The position numbers were made by a program, and so were the translations under genes. The notes below the pieces were generated by a model that ran no database searches, was not told where the DNA came from, and was given only the letters and a program-made list of their open reading frames with translations. A DNA stretch of 27,766 nucleotides from a virus. Numbering within the stretch: the stretch's first letter is position 1; each line of letters starts with the position of its first letter. The DNA is taken from positions 1 to 27,766 of IMG/VR virus record IMGVR_UViG_3300031658_000083; one strand, 5' to 3'. This document shows, piece after piece, positions 1,518-27,766 of this stretch.

Positions 1518-4500
1518 ATGGTTAACCTGCATTCCTTTTCGGGATTAGACAGTTTAATACTAGGTAAAAAACAAACACTAGAACAGCTTGCTGAAGAAAA
1601 GCGTCTAAATATACAGAGTAAATCTGAGCTGGCTACCGTCGTAGCTAAGCCTGACTCGGATTCCATGACAGTTAGGGATCAATATGGGTTATTACAGGAA
1701 ATTCGTTCAGAGTTTTTTGACTCCCCAGATCGTCCTGAGTTAGGCGGATCAAAGATACGTCGTCAGAAAATTGCATATGCTGCCCAGTTTGGTGTAGATG
1801 TTGACCAAGTTACTGATGAAGATTTAATTACCTGGGGTAAAAATGTTTCTGCAGAAACTGCTAAAATGCATTTCAATGTTGGCGATGAAGTTAGATACAC
1901 CCCCACTGGTGAGAAGTCTAAATTAGCTGGGGATGATCGGATAATTTCTAAGATCTATAATAAGGATCTTGATCAACTCTCTGAGTTAACAAATACTGGT
2001 GCGTTGAATACTGCGGTTGCTGCTCCATGGAACCAGCAGCGCCTTATTGAGGCTAACCGGTTAAAGACAGAATTGCGCCAAGCTAAGGATCCTGGGTATA
2101 AATCAGGATACGATGAAGATGGTGATGCAATTGCTGTTCAACAAGTAGATGGTACTGTCACCTATGGTGATCGGGATAACCTTAGAGGTAATAATATTCC
2201 TCAGGTTAAAAGTGAAGAGAAATCTAATATAGGTAATTGGGGCAAGCCAGGCGATATATTCCTAAATACTCTTGCTAAAACAGTAGCAAATACTTTTGAT
2301 GTAGCTAAGCCTATCCTACGCCAGGTTATGGCGATTGGTAATGGCCGCATGAGTAACTCTTTAAGTGTTACTGATTTAATTGATGGTCATAATAATATTG
2401 CAGAAGTAGCTGACCCATCTGCGGTAATTACAGATGAGCAAGAAGCTTTGTTCAATGATATCATTAATCGAGGTGAAGATACTAATCTCAATACAGAAGA
2501 ACAGCAATTTTGGAATTCTACATCAGGGACTTTACTCCAGAATATGCACAATACTGTTTTAGCTAATATTGAAGATGCTAAAGCAATTAATAAAGTAGCA
2601 AACAACTTTCGTAAGACTATCCATGCTGGCGGGCTAGACGCTAAAATTAAAAAACAATACGATAAAGATTTTGAAAAAGATGGTTTTTTTGCTGCTAGCG
2701 CAAATATGTTAATAGACAATCCTTTGTATGCTATTGAAGAGTTAGCTGCATCATTGCCGGTTATGTTAGCAGCAATGACTGCCCCTGGTTTAGTATCTAT
2801 GTTTAACCAAAAAGCAGAAGACGCTATACTAGAACGAACTCAGGATTCTAATGATCCTTTAAGCCGGGAAGATATAAATGAAGTTAGAGTAGGTGCCGCA
2901 GTAGCAACACTATTTGAGCGTGTTGGTGCTGAGATAGTACTGAAGAAACTACCTGGCATAGATAAATTAACCATAGGATTATATAAGCAATTTCCTTTGC
3001 TTAATCATATATTAGCCCCAGCCACTAAAGTGGTTACTGCTGCGGTATTTGAAGGTGGTGCAGAAGCAGCAACATCTGTTGGTGAGCAATTTGCTGGAGG
3101 TAAAGACCTTAACCCAGCCGATATAGGGCATGCTGCCGCTATAGGCATAGGTGGGGGTGGAGGCGTTAAAGCCCCAGGTGCTGTAATTGATTTAGTTCGT
3201 GGGCAAACACCAGTAGTAAAAGCAAAGCGAGATGCGGTATTACGGGAAATGTTTACTCCAGAGACTATGGCCGGTACAGCTGAAGGGGTTCCTCTTCAAG
3301 CGCGTATTGATGAAATTAATAAAGCACTGGGAGAAACTCCAGGTGATCACCCTAATGTTATTCGTCTTACCAAAGAACGTGAAGAGCTGCAGAAACAGCT
3401 CGATGTAGCTAATCCTGAGGCTATCTCAGAGGAGCGTCACGTAGAGCTCAGTAAGGAACTAGAGGAACTTGATGCAGCATTGCCCAAAGAAGAAGTTAAG
3501 CCCTCTGAAGACGCCCCTACATCTTCTGTACAAGAAGAAGATACGGGCGTCCCTAAAGTAGAAGTATCTAAAGAAGTATTTGATGCTAAAATAACTGAAA
3601 GCCAGACAGGCACATTACAAGAAGCAGTAGCTGCCTTAAGTGCTTTAGCTAATGGCAAGCTTGAAGATGATCAACTTGATGCGTTAGACGCAGCCAGAGT
3701 GGCCTTACGAGAACGTGCTGGCAAAACTCCTACTGAGGAGGTTGAGCATAGCAGTTTACAGCCAGTTAATAAACAAGACCCTGCTAAGATTAAGACTGCC
3801 TTAGAAAATGCAGAGACTGAAGAAGACGTAGCTCACTTCAATAACATATTAAATGCTATAGAAGGTGAAGCTGCTCTCACAGAGCGGGATCCAAAGGTTA
3901 AGAAAGATACCAAGGAAGTAAGTGATGACATTAAAAATGGTGTCACTGACCAGTGGACAGGTTTTCAAACATATGTAGAACGTATTGCTGAAATCACAGA
4001 AAATGAAGCTGATCTTGATAATAGAGATGGGCAAATAAAAGCTGTTGAAAATCAGATGAAAACTCATCTTGATAATATGAAAGCCAAATTAGCAGCATTT
4101 ACTAAAGCCCGGGCTACTACGCCCCCAGCTGGTATGGTTATGGTGGTTAAGGGTACCCGCAAAGATCCAGAGAGCCAAGATCGCACTATGGAATATGCCA
4201 TAGAGCCTATGCTTGAAGCAGATTTTAAAGCAGAGCGTACTAAAACTGGTTATGCTACTCTTATCACTGAGGAGGTATCATCCGGGTTAATAGAAAATAT
4301 TGAGCAAGAAGTAGCCTTTGGTGAATCTATGTTTGCCATGGTTAATGGGCATAAAGATACATCCTTTGTTAAAGCAGCACGTAACCAGGTATTAGAGGCT
4401 AGACAATTAGAATTAGACTTTGATGCTTTAGATGCTCAGCAAGTCAATACTACAACTGCCCCCCTTAGTAAGGCAGATATTGATAATCTAGATGTTGAAC

Positions 4501-7500
4501 AAAGTACTCCAGAAAAGGAGGATACTAATGATGACCAGCCAGAAAGTACGAATACACCAGAAGCTCCTACGCCTGTTTCTGGGGATACTAGTGCTAGCAG
4601 TACGGCTGCGCCAAGCACACCTGATGGGGAAGCAGCTACTAAAGATAGTAAGCCAGGAATCCAGGAAACATCAAAAGAAGATGATGCCGAGAATGCTGAG
4701 CAATTATCAGAAGAAGAAGGCATTAACCGGGGAGAAGCTACTCCGCCTGTAGAGGAGATTTCAGAGCAAGCTGATGAAGCTCCTGCACCCAAGGTAGGTA
4801 AACCTAAAGGAAGCAAGGTAGCTGCAGCCATCAAGGCTGGTACAGCTCCTGTAGTTGATTTTATAGCAGGATCGGCATTACCGTTTATTACAGCAGCTTT
4901 TGGTAAAGCAGGAAGTGTATTAAGGCAGTCAAAATTAGCTGGGTTATCTTTGCCTGAATTGATTAAATTTAAATCAAATAATGGTATTCAGAATATACCT
5001 ACGGCAGCCTTTGATACTGAGGTAGCTTTGGTTGCTGCACTTGTTGAATTAAAAATGAGTCCAGCGGGGGCAGCTATATTAGCTAAAGCATTTAAAGGGT
5101 TTAATAAGCGTTATAAAAAACTAACCCTTAAGGCACCAGATAATGCTGAAGGGCATGCTCTTAAAAAAGCGTTTACTATGCTGTATACAATGGATGGTAA
5201 AACCTCGAATTATGAGGCTCCTCCTCAAGTAGTGTTTGCTTTAATGCTAGGTAACATGGCTTGGGTAAATCAGAATCCTCTTAATAATGCATTGCAGCAA
5301 AAGCATGAGCAAGAGCGGTTTATGTATGGTAGCCAGGGTGGACGCTTATCTAGAACTGAACAAAATCAGATTGCTGATTTAGGACATTCTTATATTTTAT
5401 CTGCTAACGGAGTAGGAGCTCATGTTGCTAGTTTATTGAATATATCTGCAGCCACTGCTGAGACTGAAATATATAAAGCTAACTTAGTGACTGCTTTAGG
5501 TATTGTAGCGATGCAGGTAAACAACGGTACCTATTATGATTTACTAGCACATAGGTGGAACTTTGGAGATGCCCCCTATGTTGAAGGGCGTTCATTCAAT
5601 ACGGCTACTGCTCCAGATCCTATAACAGGTAAGAGTAAGCACACTAAGCCAGTATTCCGTCATATATTTATGAAAGAAAATATTAAATTCAGTGAAGCTG
5701 GTGCCACCACATTAGATGAAGCTGAAACTATATTTGGTAAAGCTACTGAATATGAAAATAATTACCCGATGCAAAAAATCCCTACCCATGTGGTGGATGC
5801 AATACGGGGTACTTTTGGGGGTATTCCTAAGAAAACCAGAAGTGTGTTAAAGAAACTGCAGAAGACCGTATGGACTTCGTCAGATTCCTTTACTGGTGCT
5901 GCAATGCTTCAAGAGCAACATATGGCTACCCTATACAATTTAGTAGGTGTAGTTGATATTCCTCACGGAACTCACCCAGCTGCTAGAGAGCGCCTAGAGG
6001 CGCAGAACCAAGATAAAATTGATACTTTAAATTTATTATTTGAAGCTAAAAAAGATGGTTATTTGGAGAAGTTTTTCTTTAAATATAACCTAATGAACCA
6101 GAACCGTATTATGATGGAAGGCCGTTTAAATCCGCAGTCTAGCCACATTACGCGTTACTTGGTTAAGCCTTTTGATACAGCTACATATACCAAAGAAAAT
6201 ATTCATGAATTCAAATTAGCTGTAGTAGCTAATCTTGGGTATAAGGTGGATAAACATATCGATGCTCCTGAGTCCAATGGAGCTAAATCTGAAATAGAGC
6301 AGATACCTGCTGCTAACATATTGGCGACCTTTGACGCTCTCATATTAGATACTAACATTATCGCCGCTGTTGACGCCCTAAAGACAGGGGATATTGCTAC
6401 GCTTGCTGAAGAGCTTGATATTATTAAGCGAAGATTTGGTGGAGATTTATCAATACTCACTGCCATCACTGCTTTAGTAGAGTATGGAGACGGCACTGCT
6501 ACATCATTTAAGTCAGATATTACAATGGAAATCGATGGCATTACTAATGGTTTTGCCATGAATATTCTTCAGTTTCCAATGTTTGGTAATGACGGTACTT
6601 TAAAGAAACGCCTAAACCAAACTGGTACTTACTTTGGTGTTACTACTGACCCAGTAACTCATTTAGTTGATGGTATTTTTCGCACAGGTAAGCAACCAGA
6701 TGTTTATTTAGATTTACAGAATGCTGTTATTCAAGCAACTGAAAGCAAAGATAGTGTAGAGCAGACCAGAAATGCCGCATTAAACAGATTGTTTCCTGAA
6801 ATAATGGATCCAAGTGCGCGGGATATAGTGAAGACAGCATTTATGGTCTTTATGTATGGTGGCGGTGTTGCATCAATTACTCGAGATATTGCTAAAGATA
6901 TTATTGCTGATTTGTATATTCAACTTGGAGACATCCAGCGGGAATATAATGCTACAGCTGATTTTCCTTCAGTATTTAGAGATCAAAAGGTTAAAGATTT
7001 TGAAGCAGATCTACTAACATTAGGGGCTAAACCTAGTAGAAAAATCCGTAAAGCAATAGTTCATAATACATCTACTTCATTATTAGATGGTAAAGAATTA
7101 ACCTTCAATGAAGAAAGTATGACTGTTTTAATAGGTGGGTTGCTTAAGCCTAGATTTAAGGCAGGCTTAAATTCTATTCTTGGAGGCACCGTAGATGCCC
7201 GTAACGCCGTCATACAGGCTGGTGAAGTGATGCATGCTGTGTTTATGCAGCATTACGAAAAGGCTGTAGCTGAGGCTATGGCGGACGTAGGTGGGCGTAA
7301 CTTAGCTCCATCTGAAATCCGTAAATTAGTTTCAGGAGAAAATCTACGTAAATGGCTACCTCAATATGAGGGCCCTTTAAATGAAGATGGTGAAAAAATA
7401 TTTGTAGATTTATCTAAACAAATTACTGATGAACTTGTTAAAGATACTCTTGATGATGTTGTATATGATTACGCAGACCCAAATGGCAAGAATGGACGTA

Positions 7501-10500
7501 GCAGCACCAGTAATGGATTGCCTGCTAAGAGATTTGCTAGACCTGGTGTTAGTGCATTGATACGCGGTATTATCAATATGGATGCTTCGTTAATGACTTT
7601 AGCACTGGATTCTAACCCACAAGTGTTGAGTTTATATGATGCTGTCATGGGGCGCCCTGGTGACCTGACTGCTATATCTAAAGGCTATGGTGAGAATTAC
7701 CTAAAATTAGGTATGAATCATAGCGTCATGGAATCTATGCGTTTGCAAATGCAAAAGGTTATCGATGATACCCGGGCATTAGATGCTAAGAATGGCACTA
7801 ATTTAATGGCTGCTGCTGAAGCATGGGTAACTAAAAACTCTCATGATAAGAAAGCCACTTATGCAAGCGCAGTAGCTAAAGTGCACGGCAATGCTGCTGC
7901 AGTATTAGAAGCCAGAAAAAATTTACGTAGTTTAGGTGAGATGACATCTAACCAGCTGTATAAACCTGATACTGCTGTTGTGGATCCTAATTCAGCTCCA
8001 TCATATGATGAGCGGAAAGCAGATATACAGGATAAATTAAATCTAGCTAAGCAAGCTGTATACCTTGCTCAAGAAAAACTTAAAGAACTGCCTGCTGTTA
8101 CCAGCAAAATACTGGATGATTTATTTGAATCTGAAGGAGCTGTTGATGCTCTTAAAATGCTTAAAGAAATCACTCCTACAAACATAGGTTTGTTTATTAA
8201 GATAGCTCGCAGTAATACAGAAAACCGGGCAACAGAGAGAGTACTCCGAGAAATTGGGGAAATGTTTAAATCTGAAATACAGGATAAAAACATAAGTACT
8301 TCTGCTGCTAAAATATTAGCTAGCTTGTTGGGCGGTACAAATACTAATTCAGCAGAATTGGCAGAGAAATACAGAGCCCGGGGTAAGGATAAACTTATTG
8401 CCCGTGTTAAGGCAGAGCTGGATGTGTATACTCATTCCCTTGAATTCATTGAATCAGAATCTGCCTTTAATGCAGATATACAGGTTCTTAGAGATGAGCT
8501 ATTATCTCTCGAACATTTGCGTAGAGAAAATCCTAAGCCAACCTTAGCTGGTGATCTTGATTTAAGTAACATACAGACGTTACTTGCTAAATTTAAAGCA
8601 CTGTCCCGAGGTTATCATAGCTCAGATGCTGCCCATGAAGCACACTCCTCAGTCTTACAGCGTACAGTTAATACATTAGCTAAAGGACTTGAGAATGCTG
8701 CTAGAATTAAAATAAGCGTTGAGCAGATAGATGGGCCAACACAAGGCTCATATAATACTCGCCGTAACAAACTAAGGGTCTCTATGAGCCGTCAACCACC
8801 TGCGTCTGCCAATGGGCAGTCTCCGGAGGAAGTGTACGTCCACGAGCTCACTCACGCCCTCACAGTGACGGCATTAAGAGAGAACCCGATAGTTCGTAAT
8901 ACTTTAGAGAAATTATATAAACGTACTAAAAAAGACATTGATGCTAACGGTAAACATGAAATATTCTTGAATGGAATACCTAAAGCAGATTGGTCAGCTA
9001 AAGATATTGAGATGGCCGAAGCTCAGTATGATTATTTGTTTGATAACAGCAAAGGTGAAGCTAATAGATTAGCAGAATTTTTAGCATATTCTGTGAGTAA
9101 TAAGGCCCTCGTCACTCATTTAGAAAGTATATCTAAAGAGCAGCGTACTCGCAGTGAAGGTCTTGCTGGTTTATTTGCTCGGGCTATTGAAATTGTTGCA
9201 GACGCATTTGCAAGAGCCATGGGTAACAAAGCCCAGGCTAATGCTCATATGGATGTGATGGTAATCCTTGAGCAACTGATGCAGATCCAAAGTAAAAATG
9301 AAACTATTGCCTCAAGGATGGCTAATAAGATAGTAGCTAAATCCGATGTTTATGATGAAAAAATTAGAGAAGTCCTGCAAAGACAGGCTGAGCGCTTAAT
9401 TAAAGCAGACACTACCAGCAAATTACGCAAAGTATCTAACTCGGTAATTGGTGGTGCAGCATTACATATGAGTGAGAATGCAGTATCTGCTCAAGTCCTT
9501 CGCAAAGTGCACACTATAATGGGTGCCACAGTAATGTCTATCGCTGGTGAGATGGGTGACGGTGTACTTACCAGCCCACTAATTAAGCAACTATTGCAAG
9601 TTAGAAACGCATCAGCTAAAGCTCGCCAAGATACCGAACGGGATTATCTTGATTGGTTTAATAATAAAATTTGGAAATCCACTACCGGTAAAGATATTAA
9701 TGTTGAGACAAAAAATGCATTAACTAATGTAATGTTACGCACCCAGATATCTAGCCTTCTCCGTGTTAAAATAAATGGAACTAAAATAAGTGCTTCTGAT
9801 ATTAATAATTTAATAGGCAATACAACAGCTGCTGCAGATCTACGTAAAAATTTACGGGCGGCTTTGTTGACTAAAATGGGATTAAAAGAGGCTGACAGGG
9901 CTATTGAATATGCCACTGAATTAGGTCATTTTATGGCCAATGGTGAAACCTATTTACCTGATGCACACCAAAATCCTGCATCAATTATTAGATCAGAAAT
10001 TGCTGCTAAAGACCGCCAAGAGCACCCAACTATGCTGCCAGATCTGCAAGCGTATGTTTCGCTAATAGCATTAGGAGCTACAGATGCTCGGGAAATTTCT
10101 ATGGTTAAAGAATTATCCACCAATGAATTTGAAAAAGATGGCGCTAATAACGGCATTATTGATATCTTAGATGCTCACGCTAGCTTTACTCAGTCTTCTG
10201 TTGAGGAGCTATTTGGGAATAATCCTATGCAAACACAATCTGGTTGGATTGTTGAACGTGTAGATAACCTGCACAGTATGGTAACTGGTGGTAGCTCAGC
10301 TAAGGAAATGAAGCAGAAAAAACAAGGTAGCTATAGTCAGCATGTTCCCTTAGGCGATATCCCCGGCCTCGATACTCCACACGATACTTTGTATGTGTCA
10401 CGTCAGATGCCTGAGGTTCGTTATGTTTCTGGTATTTTCTCTAATACCGGTCAACATACTAAGGGCACAACTATTGCTGAAATGCTTGCTGATGACCCTA

Positions 10501-11993
10501 AATATAGGGATCCAGTTACTGATAAAATTAATTGGAAAAAGATTAGAAAAACTATTAAAGGTGTAGCTAAAGAACAAGCTAGGGCAGCTCGATCGCTCAA
10601 TAGAGATGACCGTCTTAAGCTTCGTCCTGTCCGAGATGATTCAGGCAATATTGTAGATTACCGCGTTATAATGGATCACAAGACCAAGAAAGAATTACTC
10701 TCACCAGATTTAGAATTTCAAAATGTGTTTGCTCACATGCAATCTAATTTTGTAGATAAAAAGAATAGTATCATTACAGATAAGCATACTGTTGATGAGC
10801 TTGTGCGCGAGCAGCAGACCCTATTAGAGACTATTCCAGAACGATTCATTGATATCATGGATTCAGAGTCTAAATACAAAGAGCAGTATCGTAGACTTCC
10901 TAAAGAAGTACGGGATTATATGCAGCAATATATGATCGATGGTACATTTATGGTGCGAGATAGTATTGTGAATAAGGTGTTTGGTTTTCAAGCCAAAAGC
11001 TTGAGTAACATTGATTTCCTACAAAAAGATTCTAGGGCCATGGCCAAGTGGGCAACCAGAATGGGGCAGCATATTGTTACATCCTTTGTGTCATACGGTG
11101 TAGATCGTATTGTGGTTGCTACTACTGCAGTCATTGCCGGTAACATTATGTCTAATAACTTCCAATTAATGATGCGTAAAATTGGCCCTGTATATATTGC
11201 TCGTAAAACTTTGGAAGGTTTTCAAGAATATCAAGTTTATCAGAAAGATGCTGATAGACTTCGTGAGCTAAATAGGCAGATTAAGATTAAAGATTTGAGT
11301 GATGCTAGCCCTGAGAAACAAGAGGCTATTGCTACCTTTATAAGAATGCAGAATAATAAGATGCATAAAATGAGTGAAGCCGGATTAAACTCTTTGATTG
11401 TGGAAGATCTAAATGAAGCCTCTACTAAAGGATATTTGGATCGGGCTCAAAAGGTAATGAACTCTGATAAGTTCACAAAGTATACTAATAACTTTGCGGC
11501 AAACGCTATAGGCACGGCTGCCAAGACTGTCTTTATGACAAGTAGCAGCGCTCCATATAGGGTATCTAAAAAGGCAGTGGCGTTATCTGACTTCTTAGCT
11601 CGATACGTGATGATCGAGCATGCTATGGAAGTTAAAGGCGAGAGCTTTGAACAAGCTATGTTCGAAGCAGTTGATGCCTTTGTATTATTTGATGAGAACT
11701 TAGATCCAAATATAGATGCTTTAAGCTCAGTAGCTGGTGTGCTGTTTGCCTCATACTTTATGCGTAACCACAGAGCGGTTAAGCAATTAGTTAAAAAGCA
11801 CCCAACTTACGTAGCAGCCTCAGCTGGGTTGCAGCACATATTGGATATTCAGACTTTAGCTAATATGAATAGCTCACTATATATGGGCAATATTGTAAGT
11901 AATTTGCAGCTGGATGATTTAGGAGTTACGGCAGCCACAACTACTTTACCAGGTAATATTGCAGATGGGTTAGATGAATTACCTATATTTTAA
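1518..11993 (+). CDS. Giant virion-encapsidated RNA polymerase (N4 vRNAP-like)
   Basis: 3491 residues, close to the roughly 3500 of N4 vRNAP. In N4 this protein is packaged, injected with the DNA and transcribes early genes. The start ATG follows an AGGAA ribosome site. The core motifs of single-subunit T7-type polymerases are visible. An MMEGR block (R1536) replaces TxxGR. Motif A holds D1673 in EIDGITNGFA. Motif B matches Rx3Kx7YG exactly (R1768, K1772, Y1780, G1781). Motif C is LYDAVMG (Y2040, D2041), with Tyr where T7 and N4 have His. The spacing R-D-K-D of 137, 99 and 269 resembles my recollection of N4 mini-vRNAP (R424, D559, K670, D951: 135, 111, 281). Residues 1 to about 980 form an N-terminal region with a Gly run near 547. 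Residues about 980-1100 are an acidic Ser/Thr/Pro/Glu linker. The C-terminal region (about 2150-3491) has HELTH at 2442-2446 with a possible third ligand E2520. Confidence 0.93.
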   Translation: MVNLHSFSGLDSLILGKKQTLEQLAEEKRLNIQSKSELATVVAKPDSDSMTVRDQYGLLQEIRSEFFDSPDRPELGGSKIRRQKIAYAAQFGVDVDQVTDEDLITWGKNVSAETAKMHFNVGDEVRYTPTGEKSKLAGDDRIISKIYNKDLDQLSELTNTGALNTAVAAPWNQQRLIEANRLKTELRQAKDPGYKSGYDEDGDAIAVQQVDGTVTYGDRDNLRGNNIPQVKSEEKSNIGNWGKPGDIFLNTLAKTVANTFDVAKPILRQVMAIGNGRMSNSLSVTDLIDGHNNIAEVADPSAVITDEQEALFNDIINRGEDTNLNTEEQQFWNSTSGTLLQNMHNTVLANIEDAKAINKVANNFRKTIHAGGLDAKIKKQYDKDFEKDGFFAASANMLIDNPLYAIEELAASLPVMLAAMTAPGLVSMFNQKAEDAILERTQDSNDPLSREDINEVRVGAAVATLFERVGAEIVLKKLPGIDKLTIGLYKQFPLLNHILAPATKVVTAAVFEGGAEAATSVGEQFAGGKDLNPADIGHAAAIGIGGGGGVKAPGAVIDLVRGQTPVVKAKRDAVLREMFTPETMAGTAEGVPLQARIDEINKALGETPGDHPNVIRLTKEREELQKQLDVANPEAISEERHVELSKELEELDAALPKEEVKPSEDAPTSSVQEEDTGVPKVEVSKEVFDAKITESQTGTLQEAVAALSALANGKLEDDQLDALDAARVALRERAGKTPTEEVEHSSLQPVNKQDPAKIKTALENAETEEDVAHFNNILNAIEGEAALTERDPKVKKDTKEVSDDIKNGVTDQWTGFQTYVERIAEITENEADLDNRDGQIKAVENQMKTHLDNMKAKLAAFTKARATTPPAGMVMVVKGTRKDPESQDRTMEYAIEPMLEADFKAERTKTGYATLITEEVSSGLIENIEQEVAFGESMFAMVNGHKDTSFVKAARNQVLEARQLELDFDALDAQQVNTTTAPLSKADIDNLDVEQSTPEKEDTNDDQPESTNTPEAPTPVSGDTSASSTAAPSTPDGEAATKDSKPGIQETSKEDDAENAEQLSEEEGINRGEATPPVEEISEQADEAPAPKVGKPKGSKVAAAIKAGTAPVVDFIAGSALPFITAAFGKAGSVLRQSKLAGLSLPELIKFKSNNGIQNIPTAAFDTEVALVAALVELKMSPAGAAILAKAFKGFNKRYKKLTLKAPDNAEGHALKKAFTMLYTMDGKTSNYEAPPQVVFALMLGNMAWVNQNPLNNALQQKHEQERFMYGSQGGRLSRTEQNQIADLGHSYILSANGVGAHVASLLNISAATAETEIYKANLVTALGIVAMQVNNGTYYDLLAHRWNFGDAPYVEGRSFNTATAPDPITGKSKHTKPVFRHIFMKENIKFSEAGATTLDEAETIFGKATEYENNYPMQKIPTHVVDAIRGTFGGIPKKTRSVLKKLQKTVWTSSDSFTGAAMLQEQHMATLYNLVGVVDIPHGTHPAARERLEAQNQDKIDTLNLLFEAKKDGYLEKFFFKYNLMNQNRIMMEGRLNPQSSHITRYLVKPFDTATYTKENIHEFKLAVVANLGYKVDKHIDAPESNGAKSEIEQIPAANILATFDALILDTNIIAAVDALKTGDIATLAEELDIIKRRFGGDLSILTAITALVEYGDGTATSFKSDITMEIDGITNGFAMNILQFPMFGNDGTLKKRLNQTGTYFGVTTDPVTHLVDGIFRTGKQPDVYLDLQNAVIQATESKDSVEQTRNAALNRLFPEIMDPSARDIVKTAFMVFMYGGGVASITRDIAKDIIADLYIQLGDIQREYNATADFPSVFRDQKVKDFEADLLTLGAKPSRKIRKAIVHNTSTSLLDGKELTFNEESMTVLIGGLLKPRFKAGLNSILGGTVDARNAVIQAGEVMHAVFMQHYEKAVAEAMADVGGRNLAPSEIRKLVSGENLRKWLPQYEGPLNEDGEKIFVDLSKQITDELVKDTLDDVVYDYADPNGKNGRSSTSNGLPAKRFARPGVSALIRGIINMDASLMTLALDSNPQVLSLYDAVMGRPGDLTAISKGYGENYLKLGMNHSVMESMRLQMQKVIDDTRALDAKNGTNLMAAAEAWVTKNSHDKKATYASAVAKVHGNAAAVLEARKNLRSLGEMTSNQLYKPDTAVVDPNSAPSYDERKADIQDKLNLAKQAVYLAQEKLKELPAVTSKILDDLFESEGAVDALKMLKEITPTNIGLFIKIARSNTENRATERVLREIGEMFKSEIQDKNISTSAAKILASLLGGTNTNSAELAEKYRARGKDKLIARVKAELDVYTHSLEFIESESAFNADIQVLRDELLSLEHLRRENPKPTLAGDLDLSNIQTLLAKFKALSRGYHSSDAAHEAHSSVLQRTVNTLAKGLENAARIKISVEQIDGPTQGSYNTRRNKLRVSMSRQPPASANGQSPEEVYVHELTHALTVTALRENPIVRNTLEKLYKRTKKDIDANGKHEIFLNGIPKADWSAKDIEMAEAQYDYLFDNSKGEANRLAEFLAYSVSNKALVTHLESISKEQRTRSEGLAGLFARAIEIVADAFARAMGNKAQANAHMDVMVILEQLMQIQSKNETIASRMANKIVAKSDVYDEKIREVLQRQAERLIKADTTSKLRKVSNSVIGGAALHMSENAVSAQVLRKVHTIMGATVMSIAGEMGDGVLTSPLIKQLLQVRNASAKARQDTERDYLDWFNNKIWKSTTGKDINVETKNALTNVMLRTQISSLLRVKINGTKISASDINNLIGNTTAAADLRKNLRAALLTKMGLKEADRAIEYATELGHFMANGETYLPDAHQNPASIIRSEIAAKDRQEHPTMLPDLQAYVSLIALGATDAREISMVKELSTNEFEKDGANNGIIDILDAHASFTQSSVEELFGNNPMQTQSGWIVERVDNLHSMVTGGSSAKEMKQKKQGSYSQHVPLGDIPGLDTPHDTLYVSRQMPEVRYVSGIFSNTGQHTKGTTIAEMLADDPKYRDPVTDKINWKKIRKTIKGVAKEQARAARSLNRDDRLKLRPVRDDSGNIVDYRVIMDHKTKKELLSPDLEFQNVFAHMQSNFVDKKNSIITDKHTVDELVREQQTLLETIPERFIDIMDSESKYKEQYRRLPKEVRDYMQQYMIDGTFMVRDSIVNKVFGFQAKSLSNIDFLQKDSRAMAKWATRMGQHIVTSFVSYGVDRIVVATTAVIAGNIMSNNFQLMMRKIGPVYIARKTLEGFQEYQVYQKDADRLRELNRQIKIKDLSDASPEKQEAIATFIRMQNNKMHKMSEAGLNSLIVEDLNEASTKGYLDRAQKVMNSDKFTKYTNNFAANAIGTAAKTVFMTSSSAPYRVSKKAVALSDFLARYVMIEHAMEVKGESFEQAMFEAVDAFVLFDENLDPNIDALSSVAGVLFASYFMRNHRAVKQLVKKHPTYVAASAGLQHILDIQTLANMNSSLYMGNIVSNLQLDDLGVTAATTTLPGNIADGLDELPIF

Positions 11994-23863: not shown

Positions 23864-25145
23864 TTACGTACACGTTCTTGCTGGCTCGAGTTAGGGCAAC
23901 ATACATTAGCCGAGCTTTAGTAGCTTCGTCTCGGCATTTATTGATGTTGACTCTATCGATGAATACAGCAGGAAATGTGCCTCCTTGAGCCTTATGGGTT
24001 GTGCCAGCAAAGGGTGGACGGAGATCCGCCAGGGAGTTCTTTGTATCATAGAACTGCACCCATGCTGCCTTGGATTTACTAGCAATAGCTTCAGATTTTA
24101 ATTCATTTAATACTTTGTCAGCCGCCCCCTTATTCATAGGGCAAAATACTGATTTTTCTCGAGATCTGGTGAACTTATTATAGTCCCCTGATACCCGGAC
24201 ACTATACCCAGGTATACCACAATGTTCTGCTTGGATAAAGGACTTAACAAATACTATTTCATTGTTAGTGAGGACAATGTGGTCACCCTGTTTGACTATG
24301 CTATTAGCTATCAACCGCTCATCTTCATAGAAGGGTTCTATGCTATCTTCAAGGAAGTATGCAGCCTTACGAATCATGGCATTATAATTAATAGCAGATT
24401 CATTAGTGTAGGTGCAGAGCGGGGTGTCTATTACGGCACCGGCATCATAAGCCATATATTTTTTAACAAATTGAGTTACAAATTCAGCATGCGGTAATAC
24501 AGTGATACCTTCACCAGCAGCATTTAAATTTGTTTCAATAATAGGCATATCTTGACGCTGGCCTTTAATGAATTCACGGAATTCAATAGCTTTCTCTAGA
24601 ATAGGATTACCACCTGCTTGACGATGAACTTTAGTTAATGTGAATGTGGCCAATGTGCCATCAAATATACTGCAGATATCTTTTGGAGGCGGTAGTTGAT
24701 ATGGATCCCCTACAAATAATATTTTAAGGCGTTTCTTTTGGACAGTAGTTACCATAGCTTTAAGGAATAAATTACCAATCATGGATCCTTCATCAACAAC
24801 CACAACTGAGCCATTAGGTATTAGACATATGCCTGCAGGTTTCAGGGTCTCTTTGCCAAATCTGGTTACTGAGGGCTTAAGTTTGAATGCCGCATGCGCA
24901 GTAATGACCTCATGTCCAACAACGTCTGATAGTACTGATGCAGCCCTATGAGTGCTGGCGCATAGCTCAATATTAATATCAGGTTCCCGTGCCCAAATTT
25001 CTTGGATTAGTTCTTTAACCACGGTAGTTTTACCAGTACCTGCTGAGCCTGTAAGTACAGCTAAAGCATGGGCATCTGTATCAAGTAGCGCATCACAAAT
25101 ACCTTGTACTGCGTCAGTTTGATCCTGTGATAATTGAAAGCTCAT
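23856..25145 (-). CDS. SF1 DNA helicase (Dda/RecD2-like)
   Basis: 429 residues with the SF1B motif series: GSAGTGKT (33-40), THRAA (65-69), VVVDEGSM (D118, E119), GDPYQLPP (146-153), VHRQ (about 173), THKAQGGTF near 380, and YVALTRAS (about 415-422). T4 Dda is the best-known relative of this length: a 5'-3' helicase that helps start replication and strips proteins from DNA. The gene lies directly after the polymerase C-half and overlaps it by 32 bp. AGGAAA precedes the ATG. A replication role with polymerase and primase is well supported. Confidence 0.92.
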   Translation of the reverse strand: MSFQLSQDQTDAVQGICDALLDTDAHALAVLTGSAGTGKTTVVKELIQEIWAREPDINIELCASTHRAASVLSDVVGHEVITAHAAFKLKPSVTRFGKETLKPAGICLIPNGSVVVVDEGSMIGNLFLKAMVTTVQKKRLKILFVGDPYQLPPPKDICSIFDGTLATFTLTKVHRQAGGNPILEKAIEFREFIKGQRQDMPIIETNLNAAGEGITVLPHAEFVTQFVKKYMAYDAGAVIDTPLCTYTNESAINYNAMIRKAAYFLEDSIEPFYEDERLIANSIVKQGDHIVLTNNEIVFVKSFIQAEHCGIPGYSVRVSGDYNKFTRSREKSVFCPMNKGAADKVLNELKSEAIASKSKAAWVQFYDTKNSLADLRPPFAGTTHKAQGGTFPAVFIDRVNINKCRDEATKARLMYVALTRASKNVYVNV

Positions 25146-26115
25146 TTTGTATTTCCTCGATAGTAGCCTTGTTAGGCAGTGTTTGTAACTTGTGCCAAGA
25201 TTTACCTATCTCGAGTGAGGCCGACAATATGACATCAGTAGATCTGATGTCAGGATCGTCTTGCCATTCCATCTCTTCAATAAGCACATCATTTAAAAAT
25301 TTAATATATTTTGGGTCATTCTTTATTAAGAAATACCCAGCATCATGAATCATGTTAATTGGTAGTATTACTGTGGCATACCCGGCTCGTTCAATTCGGT
25401 TATTAGTAGCAATCATTGCCCGATTAAGCAGCATGCCCCAAGACTGTGTCACTGCATTATTAGCGCTGCGAGCTTCAGCCTCTGCTTCATATGGGGTTTT
25501 AGAATTACCCAGAATACATTTTGATATTATCGGAGTTCTTAGCTTAAGCCCAAAGGCACATTCTACATACCCGTGCTTAATCATAAATTGCTTATTACGT
25601 TCGTTAAATTCCCCTGATACTTTATAAAGTTCATGAAATGCATTCTCTATTTCAATAGCTTTTTCCATTGGAAACCCGCTCCGCTTATGCAGAGTATAGG
25701 CAGTGCCCATATACTGTAGAGCGAAGGTGGGTTTCTTGGAATCTTGTCTTAAGATAGGGTATTTAGTAGCAATAGAATTGATGCTGCTAACATCATTAGG
25801 ATCGATGTCAGGCATTTGATCTGTAAAGTATTTCTGAGCTCTCATAGAGTGCCCATCATAGCCATCAGTATAGACCTTAATCCTGTTAGGATCCTGGCTC
25901 TTAATAGCTCCAATCTTCTCCTCTAAAGCATCGAAGTCAGCTCCTGCAAATAACCACCCACCTTCGTAGGAGACAGCCCCCTGAACCTGATCTTGTAGAT
26001 CTGGGGGTAATTTAATTAGTAATTGCCCGTATTGTTGAATATCCTTTATTTCGCCTTTATGTATTAATTGGTCTAATTTTTGAAGAGTATTATTTATCTC
26101 GGTGCTGTAATTCAT
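25114..26115 (-). CDS. DNA polymerase I family, C-terminal polymerase half of a split gene
   Basis: 333 residues holding the entire polymerase core. Motif A is GADFDALEEKI (D60, E65), motif B is RQDSKKPTFALQYMG (R123, K127/K128, Y135, G137), and motif C is MIHDAGY (H257, D258). It lacks the exonuclease domain, which is encoded by the gene at 26597-27766. The first about 50 residues have no clear motif and may form the contact with the other half. The likely ribosome site is AGGAG 13 bases upstream, or a GGA nearer the ATG, both inside the HNH gene. The start overlaps that gene by 26 bp, and the reading frame differs from the N-half by one base. Confidence 0.9.
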   Translation of the reverse strand: MNYSTEINNTLQKLDQLIHKGEIKDIQQYGQLLIKLPPDLQDQVQGAVSYEGGWLFAGADFDALEEKIGAIKSQDPNRIKVYTDGYDGHSMRAQKYFTDQMPDIDPNDVSSINSIATKYPILRQDSKKPTFALQYMGTAYTLHKRSGFPMEKAIEIENAFHELYKVSGEFNERNKQFMIKHGYVECAFGLKLRTPIISKCILGNSKTPYEAEAEARSANNAVTQSWGMLLNRAMIATNNRIERAGYATVILPINMIHDAGYFLIKNDPKYIKFLNDVLIEEMEWQDDPDIRSTDVILSASLEIGKSWHKLQTLPNKATIEEIQNELSIITGSN

Positions 26116-26584
26116 AGATCCGCAAATGCTCCTCTAACCCATGTTCAACAAAATATGCTTTGCGGGCTTCATGCCCCTCTTCTGCTGTCAGGAATTTACC
26201 TATTTCTTTTCTTTTCTTATTAACGGTAACCGTAGCTACCCATTTCTTTTTAACGCTGTGCCAGCTAACGCCAACATACCCAGAAGTATTTAATACTGAT
26301 TTACCTCTATTTCCTGCTTGCGCAGCTAAAGGAATCCAGGTGCAATTAGAGGGGTTATACCCTTTTGTGAAATCTACACGCTCAATTGTAAGTTTGTCGG
26401 TATACCCGTGTAATAGTGCCCACGCCATAAATTCTCGCCAGGAATTACGCCATGATTCACAAACTACAATACCTTTGCCCCCGTATTTATAATACCCAGA
26501 ATGTGTAGGTAAATGGCAACGAGCTACCATAGATTCCCACGTTCTAAATAGGCGAGTAGCTTTTATTCGATGGTTTGTTGACAT
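26090..26584 (-). CDS. HNH/AP2 free-standing homing endonuclease inside the DNA polymerase
   Basis: 164 residues from the ATG at 26584, chosen because GGAG lies 6 bases upstream; another ATG at 26596 directly follows the polymerase N-half stop. The N-terminal part has the family pattern RTWESMVARCH, YKYGGKGI and CESWRNSW, then TIERVDFTKGYNPSNCTWI, the HNH core. Residues about 102-150 (SGYVGVSWHSVKKKWVATV) are an AP2 DNA-binding domain. Such mobile endonucleases cut the allele that lacks them and spread by repair. It separates the two polymerase halves and overlaps the start of the C-half. It is co-oriented and probably co-transcribed with both. Confidence 0.9.
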   Translation of the reverse strand: MSTNHRIKATRLFRTWESMVARCHLPTHSGYYKYGGKGIVVCESWRNSWREFMAWALLHGYTDKLTIERVDFTKGYNPSNCTWIPLAAQAGNRGKSVLNTSGYVGVSWHSVKKKWVATVTVNKKRKEIGKFLTAEEGHEARKAYFVEHGLEEHLRIYELQHRDK

Positions 26585-26596
26585 AGTTAGCTCCAT

Positions 26597-27766
26597 TTAA
26601 AGGTTAGTGGCAGAGGCCATAATATCAGCCCATTTATCTTTGTCAACTAAGTACTTCGGCCCAGGCGCCACTATGCAGCTTTTAACTAATTTACCCATTG
26701 GTCCCTGAGCAGGTAGATTTGTAAGGTTAGGTGAATTACTGGATAGTCTCCCTGACTGAGTACCGCCTAATTTAAGATTACCATGAAGAAAATATACTTC
26801 CTTCATAAATGCTTTAATGAAGGTACCATTAATCTTGCTGTTATCAGCCAGCTCTATGACAAAGTCTAATAGATCTAAAATATCCTGGTCTTGGGTATGA
26901 TTCTTTAGATCCTCTAGTACATCAGCGCCAGTGCCTGCTGCCCCTGATTTTGTTTTTTCTAAGATAGGTAAGCCAAGCATATCAAATAATAATTTAATTA
27001 ACTGAGGGCCACTATTTGGGTTGAACTCAACATCTTTAAAGTCATCCACTGTTTTTACAAGTTTGACTAATTTAGCATTAGCCTTCTCGCAGGTATCTAT
27101 TTTCAATTGTATATTGAAAGCAATAACATGAGTGTTTAACTGTATTTGTTGCTCGAGAGCCCTCTCTTTGGCAGCTAAGATCTTATGAACTTCAGCGACC
27201 CTATCAGGGTCCATAGGGAGACCCACCAGCATCATCTTGAGCAGCGGGTATAGGCTGGGCTGGAATATCTCCAAATATGGCCTAGATGTTAGCTCTACAT
27301 GGTATTTTTCATATAGATACACAGTACCTAGTACATCAATTAGGTTATATTCGAGTATTTCTTTTTTGGTGTGTTTGGTAATATCTTCGATCTCAATCGC
27401 GTAATTACCTACATATTCTAAAGCACATTCTTTGAGCCCCAATGCTACCTGAGTGGTAGCATTTTTAGCCAAGTAAGCCATGAGCATTGTATCGTCGAAT
27501 GTTCTAAAATAATTAAGACCCTCCATCATACCAGCGTAATCAGTGGCATGCTTCATCCACAAGCTTCTGATTAATAACTTGGCATCAAATAAGCCACCAT
27601 GGAATATTAATTTGCCTTTGTAATTTTGGAGGAATTCTTTTAGATAAAATAACCCATTGATATCTAAATCGATGGCCACGCCATCATGTTTAGTCCAAGC
27701 AAAAGCTATTGATACTATTTTAGAATCTAGCTCTAGCCCGGTAGTTTCAATGTCAGCAGCAAGAAC
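26597..27766 (-). CDS. DNA polymerase I family, N-terminal exonuclease half (5' end outside window)
   Basis: 389 residues are visible and the frame is open to the right edge. The end of the window adds the Exo I motif, AADIETTGL (D and E at visible residues 5 and 7), upstream of a GTG at 27679 that could be mistaken for a start. Exo II appears in FHGGLFDAKLL and Exo III in YNLIDVLGTVYL, so 3'-5' proofreading is probably active. The palm start GGTQSGRLSSNSPNLTNLPA is present, but the chain stops in ATNL before motif A. The polymerase motifs are in the downstream gene. Its TAA lies 12 bp before the HNH start. The natural start is not in the window. Confidence 0.92.
   Translation of the reverse strand, partial: VLAADIETTGLELDSKIVSIAFAWTKHDGVAIDLDINGLFYLKEFLQNYKGKLIFHGGLFDAKLLIRSLWMKHATDYAGMMEGLNYFRTFDDTMLMAYLAKNATTQVALGLKECALEYVGNYAIEIEDITKHTKKEILEYNLIDVLGTVYLYEKYHVELTSRPYLEIFQPSLYPLLKMMLVGLPMDPDRVAEVHKILAAKERALEQQIQLNTHVIAFNIQLKIDTCEKANAKLVKLVKTVDDFKDVEFNPNSGPQLIKLLFDMLGLPILEKTKSGAAGTGADVLEDLKNHTQDQDILDLLDFVIELADNSKINGTFIKAFMKEVYFLHGNLKLGGTQSGRLSSNSPNLTNLPAQGPMGKLVKSCIVAPGPKYLVDKDKWADIMASATNL

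Follow-up and report, generated by a model that had tools for sequence, protein, structure and literature searches.

On an account given by Crona in 2011, the tails on both parts of the divided ribonucleotide reductase NrdA of Aeromonas phage Aeh1 reportedly act as interaction domains, and endonuclease-acquired tails are said to have been proposed there, from this one ribonucleotide reductase, as a general way to survive gene fragmentation. The gene is split into NrdA-a and NrdA-b by mobE, a free-standing HNH endonuclease (PMC2988022; PMC3267527). In Aeromonas phages 25 and 44RR a family B polymerase is split into gp43A and gp43B, halves that co-purify and are active (PMC2988022), and in the OM43 phages MEP401 and MEP402 a family A polymerase lies in two open reading frames (ORFs) with a small ORF between them, for which the authors suspected an intron (PMC10580990). 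Here we describe the family A DNA polymerase gene in IMG/VR virus record IMGVR_UViG_3300031658_000083 (positions 1 to 27,766; this whole stretch of 27,766 nucleotides (nt) is called the window in the following), in which an HNH/AP2 endonuclease gene stands between two polymerase ORFs. We consider it probable, at roughly three chances in four, that the inserted sequence is a homing cassette with docking tails and that the essential polymerase survives as two chains.

All parts of the locus lie on the minus strand. The first polymerase ORF (half 1, 26597-27766) is open at the contig end; its native part (26663..27766) comprises the 3'-5' exonuclease, the thumb and the start of the palm up to GKLVKSCIVAP, matches Pfam DNA_pol_A_exo1 and DNA_pol_A as well as the N4-type polymerase family PHROG 17, and is collinear with intact relatives (L007-L035). 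The second ORF (half 2, 25114-26115) holds the remainder of DNA_pol_A, and its native part, which starts with GWLFAGADF (25114..25959), carries motif A (GADF), motif B (R...K...F...Y) and motif C (HD). Half 1 covers positions 9-158 of the 381 positions of the Pfam model and half 2 positions 146-380, leaving no gap between them. ORFs, Pfam and PHROG matches confirm what a sequence-only reading of the window had claimed, namely a polymerase split in two with an HNH/AP2 gene in between, the exonuclease in the first half and motifs A, B and C all in the downstream one. Its further statement that all catalytic residues are kept holds for the polymerase motifs and for the exonuclease carboxylates (DIE, FD, Y..ID), which sit in half 1, but not for the Exo II Asn position, which is Gly. 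The break separates the palm helix (GKLVKSCIVAP) from the motif A strand (GWLFAGADF). Mapped onto Taq polymerase it falls between residues 602 and 603, 7 residues ahead of D610, which we take to be the catalytic aspartate of motif A.

The sequence between the two native parts amounts to 703 nt (25960..26662), with bounds taken from intact relatives reading VAP-DGWLFAGADF, and costs the palm one residue at most. Half 1 is prolonged by a C-terminal tail of 21 codons (26600..26662, GPKYLVDKDKWADIMASATNL) and ends in a stop (26597-26599) that directly abuts an ATG. The homing-type endonuclease gene (26090..26584, 164 amino acids) matches the HNH endonuclease families PHROG 374/3377 and, weakly, Pfam AP2; its ORF opens at 26596, the preferred start being the ATG at 26584 with GGAG 6 nt upstream. 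It overlaps by 26 nt with the start of half 2, which begins with an N-terminal head of 52 codons (25960..26115, MNYSTEINN...AVSYEG) without counterpart in intact relatives.

In most of the closest IMG/VR relatives (72-77% identity over half 2) the polymerase is a single intact ORF. Aligned intact relatives read GKLVKSCIVAP-(D/P)-GWLFAGADF or nearly so, and what is missing there corresponds exactly to the tail and head of the window; at least 15 such relatives were found at about 75% identity. Judged from these alignments, the 21 residues of the tail and the 52 residues of the head are added sequence on both halves. This answers a question put by the sequence-only reading, whether the termini are native or added; its estimate of about 21 residues for the tail was exact, and that of about 50 for the head was slightly short. 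Empty alleles of the window's site were thus found at about 75% amino acid identity, and the relatives included no two nearly identical sequences of which one has the element and the other lacks it. We also considered the head as native sequence, an idea prompted by residues 2-52 of half 2, which matched the intact polymerases of inbricus and JWAlpha in tblastn. The insert of these two phages aligns upstream of GKL.K.CF.AP and not after it, pointing to a different insert or to chance similarity, and a native head was rejected.

The window is not the only sequence with this break. Two contigs of different metagenomes (L030 and L031) and a phage (L090) show the same break together with a homologous HNH gene, a tail and a head. 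An assembly error could be excluded because independent contigs carry the break. In the window, L030 and L090 the tail has 21, 21 and 21 residues and the head 52, 52 and 51; the tails share Y-VD--KW--I, with the window tail 43-48% identical to the other two, and the heads begin with MNYST. In these three sequences the last residues of the head (QVxxAxxYxxGWLF) resemble the palm segment whose place they take, KLVKSCIVAPDGWLF, and look like a copy of it.

Cultured phages are broken at the window's site as well. In the records of the Gamaleyavirus Escherichia phages phi G17, PGN829.1, U1G and ST4 the two halves are deposited as separate genes, and their siblings ECBP1, G7C and others are intact, with flanks about 87-96% identical to the split phages at the nucleotide level. 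Since the siblings are intact and about 92% identical in nucleotide sequence, the inserted segment, about 841 nt long and cleanly bounded, is directly readable in Gamaleyavirus. The heads of the Gamaleyavirus and window types are probably homologous, their profile score being beaten by 0/200 shuffles, and homology of the tails is uncertain, the corresponding score being reached by 4/200 shuffles. The split had been called a distinct case in the sequence-only reading, a view contradicted by these four phages and by four further break points in N4-like polymerases (see below). Concerning the deposited records, the start of half 2 is correct in phi G17 and U1G and annotated too late in PGN829.1 (L003 3001-3276), which loses the whole head, and in ST4 (L266 2952-3044), which loses most of it.

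In cultured relatives tails and heads are under purifying selection at the protein level. Third codon positions hold 14 of the 18 tail and head changes between Pollock and VEc25 (p=0.00014) and 11 of 15 between phi G17 and ST4 (p=0.0018). Tail, HNH gene and head also move together in relatives. Between Pollock and VEc25 they are 93%, 93% and 97% identical with a synonymous divergence (dS) of 0.26-0.44, compared to 51% and 67% identity and a dS of about 3 for the polymerase cores; the shared tract extends into the flanks, as expected of homing with co-conversion. SP5M and PD205 show no differences in tail and head at a dS of 0.30-0.43 in the cores, and Bas69 and N4, which belong to one species (97.8% nucleotide identity), differ by the cassette. 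Between the window and L090 the HNH protein is 58% and core N 37% identical, suggesting transfer at the window's site too.

An HNH gene within a polymerase gene might also be housed by a self-splicing group I or group II intron, in which case the tails would be intron read-through and the mature mRNA would encode a single chain. Group I introns of phage polymerases often house HNH genes, and the polymerase genes of PhAPEC5, Moonfish and nACB1 contain real ones, which our Rfam search did find and which served as positive controls. In addition, Pollock (L270), Pylas (L272) and Bas69 (L273) are deposited as intron-interrupted or joined polymerases, and several related insertions are strongly structured RNAs. 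However, the same search gave no group I or group II match in the window at E<=10, nor in L003, L030, L090 and L270-L273. Apart from the HNH ORF the window insertion has only some 200 nt, and it shows no excess RNA structure compared to shuffles (z about 0.4). Moreover, tails and heads keep frame and length, with protein-level selection in relatives, whereas the first half of PhAPEC5 reaches a stop 6 codons into the intron and no head is present; finally, splits also enclose ribonucleotide reductase and anti-defence genes. We therefore regard an intron in the window as improbable. Given the lack of an intron match and the protein-level selection on tail and head, the records of Pollock, Pylas and Bas69 probably join the halves wrongly.

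The strong RNA structure was found in the insertions of phi G17, Pollock and L090 (L265 2242-3083; L270 2498-3199; L090 3452-4153) with z between -4.7 and -8.6, and the insertion of Bas69 likewise folds strongly. In phi G17, where this was measured, the structure lies mostly within the HNH ORF. Among the relatives, structure z-scores do not separate intron from non-intron classes. RNA structure is a frequent means of silencing in known endonuclease genes (PMC2988022), and the folding of these insertions may possibly reflect translational control of the endonuclease.

Protein splicing would be the other way to obtain a single chain. A split intein could join the halves, as in the fractured polB of phage MIJ3, where the break holds an endonuclease and the genomic layout is the same (PMC6892783). 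The terminal residues do not fit an intein: the tail starts with Gly and not with Cys, Ser or Ala, the head ends with Glu-Gly before Gly-Trp, and neither a terminal Asn or His-Asn nor a +1 Cys, Ser or Thr is present. With 73 residues in total the added sequence is also too small, and we give a split intein next to no chance.

We then ran a profile of intact N4-like polymerases over the collected loci. Across the break region 85 polymerases are intact and 22 are in several ORFs, a few of the latter being frameshift errors, and on the tree the split and the intact forms are mixed. Five break positions were found on the profile, at about 490, about 573 (the window), about 604, about 626 and at 653. 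At about 490, between exonuclease/thumb and palm, a small ORF of unknown family lies between the halves (L099, L112, L116/L118, L117, L087); these ORFs are unrelated, and no intron match was obtained for these breaks. At about 604, which includes SP5M, Pollock, VEc25, Bas69 and Pylas, the halves enclose an HNH gene, and at about 626 a GIY-YIG, ribonucleotide reductase, Tad2-like, Acb2/Tad1-like or unknown ORF. Position 653 is represented by nACB1, where two weak group I intron matches flank the HNH gene (L005 3274-4076) and the record annotates separate polymerase genes.

Two of these break points are combined in L030 (1763-5669) and likewise in L031, where the polymerase is in three pieces with breaks at 573 (HNH) and 626. 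The second break follows MPDI and encloses an ORF of 192 amino acids of unknown family, and a tail and a head are added at each break. In L162 (4333-6536) the halves are separated by the gene of a class II ribonucleotide reductase, and tail and head are both conserved. Anti-defence genes replace the endonuclease in L177 (4330-4832), L193 (4291-4944), L197 (4291-5021) and L196 (4291-4484), the Tad2-like and Acb2/Tad1 hairpin domains being called by Pfam for L177 and L196 and by sequence similarity for L193 and L197. The tails of the 604 and 626 types have a beta-type module in common (hhalign over 36 gapless columns, E 1.3e-7; the score is 33.9 compared to a maximum of 15.8 in 200 shuffles). 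The 604-type tail also gave a weak match (E 0.01-0.2) to a segment of collagen-like or hypothetical proteins of the Oenococcus phages phiS13, phi9805 and phiS11. The window tail and the 626-type tail gave no useful match when used as queries against cultured phages. With chances that we consider evenly balanced, these loci could represent a distinct class of mobile element, common across N4-like phages, in which an endonuclease brings its own in-frame docking tail and head, travels with them as a single unit and leaves the essential enzyme in two or three chains held together non-covalently. Such elements would be a splicing-free counterpart of inteins and introns, and after docking has been established the endonuclease could drop out and other genes, anti-defence genes among them, could take its place.

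The halves might also rejoin via their large native palm/thumb surface, with the tails being tolerated by-products of the insertion that have no role. Split proteins can reassemble without added domains, and the core is better conserved than tails and heads (69-70% compared to 46-48% identity between window and L030). Their kept length and frame and the purifying selection on them speak against by-products, as does the occurrence of a homologous tail module at two break points with unrelated genes in between (0/200 shuffles), and we consider this explanation unlikely.

The AlphaFold2 model of half 2 (predicted local distance difference test score, pLDDT, 82) has a body fold matching family A polymerases and shows three helices in the head (residues 5-19, 26-33 and 38-47; pLDDT 62-81). 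The third of these occupies the place of the palm helix left on half 1, and the motif A strand comes next. We propose that the polymerase gene of an N4-like phage received an HNH homing cassette, placed between palm helix and motif A strand. The cassette would provide an in-frame tail with a stop, the HNH/AP2 gene, and a new start with an in-frame head for the downstream half, so that the two halves would be translated as separate proteins. Most likely the tail helix and the three-helix head would dock, hold the halves and rebuild the palm, and the polymerase would work as two chains with no splicing of RNA or protein. The endonuclease would cleave the cassette-less allele of a co-infecting phage, and repair would copy tail, nuclease and head together. 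In a search with the HNH alignment, full-length homologues of the window's HNH protein were recovered only at the same polymerase site (66% identical in L030/L031 and 58-60% in L090); half 1 alone or the HNH protein alone as query gave no matches among viral contigs. With a nuclease domain, a DNA-binding domain and site-specific occurrence, the protein is classed as a homing endonuclease with predicted cleavage activity. The sequence-only reading had suggested two working halves, separated by a free-standing endonuclease gene, and termini that may form the interface; this is the best-supported interpretation.

Several points weigh against a homing cassette with docking tails. The tail is modelled as a short helix at low confidence, and half 1 runs off the contig end with its N-terminus outside the contig. 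Tail and head sequences of the window's own type number three, and between the window and L030 only 32 of 85 changes fall on third positions (p=0.23); because this codon pattern is saturated, selection on window-type tails rests on kept length, frame and residues. In the strongly structured insertions of phi G17, Pollock and L090 an RNA element that escapes recognition is possible. Two-chain function in N4-like phages would follow from analogy, Aeh1 NrdA and gp43A/gp43B showing the principle. The locus could also be a decaying, non-functional gene in a phage using another polymerase, as a selfish gene interrupts the polymerase and leaves it in two frames. Yet the polymerase motifs and exonuclease carboxylates are kept and the Pfam model is fully covered, cultured phages with the same split grow lytically with no second polymerase seen beside the split one, and splits are stable in several lineages. 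We consider decay very unlikely.

The wider gene content agrees with an N4-like origin. A virion RNA polymerase of 3491 amino acids at 1518-11993 of the window (PHROG 2206) and the neighbours of the polymerase, a Dda-like helicase, an exonuclease and a primase, mark the window as an N4-like (Schitoviridae) phage with a family A polymerase. The N4-type assignment of the polymerase itself is based on PHROG 17 and 2573 matches, with family A exonuclease and polymerase domains present.

N4-like polymerases provide many natural split cases at several break points. A single gene harbours both introns and presumed docking cassettes, and laboratory E. coli phages offer empty alleles that are near-isogenic (Bas69 versus N4, phi G17 versus ECBP1). 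With this material, how a replicative polymerase cut 7 residues from the catalytic aspartate could still work is directly testable. As a warning, genes annotated as containing an intron, such as those of Pollock, Pylas and Bas69, probably encode two polypeptides.

Compared to the known systems, the window resembles the Gamaleyavirus phages phi G17, PGN829.1, U1G and ST4 in polymerase family, break residue and homologous HNH, with a related head and a weakly related tail. It differs from them in that their tail has 26 and their head 44 residues, their HNH protein has 218 amino acids with an extra N-terminal part, and the cores are 39-46% identical. In Pollock, VEc25, Bas69, SP5M and Pylas, too, an HNH gene divides an N4-like polymerase, and tail and head are in frame, but the break lies about 30 residues further (KVY|GYDGH), the HNH belongs to another family and the tail is of the beta type. 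In PhAPEC5 and Moonfish an HNH gene interrupts the same polymerase gene, but with an Rfam group I match, no in-frame head and a read-through of 6 codons. MEP401 and MEP402 belong to another phage group and are likened to the window by description, not by sequence. The gp43A/gp43B pair is also a replicative polymerase encoded by two genes, with an endonuclease or an untranslated segment in between, but it is of family B and not A, and the break position and the joining elements differ. In Aeh1 NrdA/mobE, as would be the case in the window, an endonuclease splits an essential replication gene into two polypeptides and function is kept without splicing. The window shares with this system an endonuclease between two ORFs of one enzyme, no intron or intein found, and extra sequence on both halves. 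Unlike in Aeh1 another host gene is affected, and the tails of N4-like phages travel with the endonuclease and occur at several sites and in many phages, with true introns in sister phages. New with respect to these precedents are the mobile tails, their reuse at multiple sites and the three-piece polymerase.

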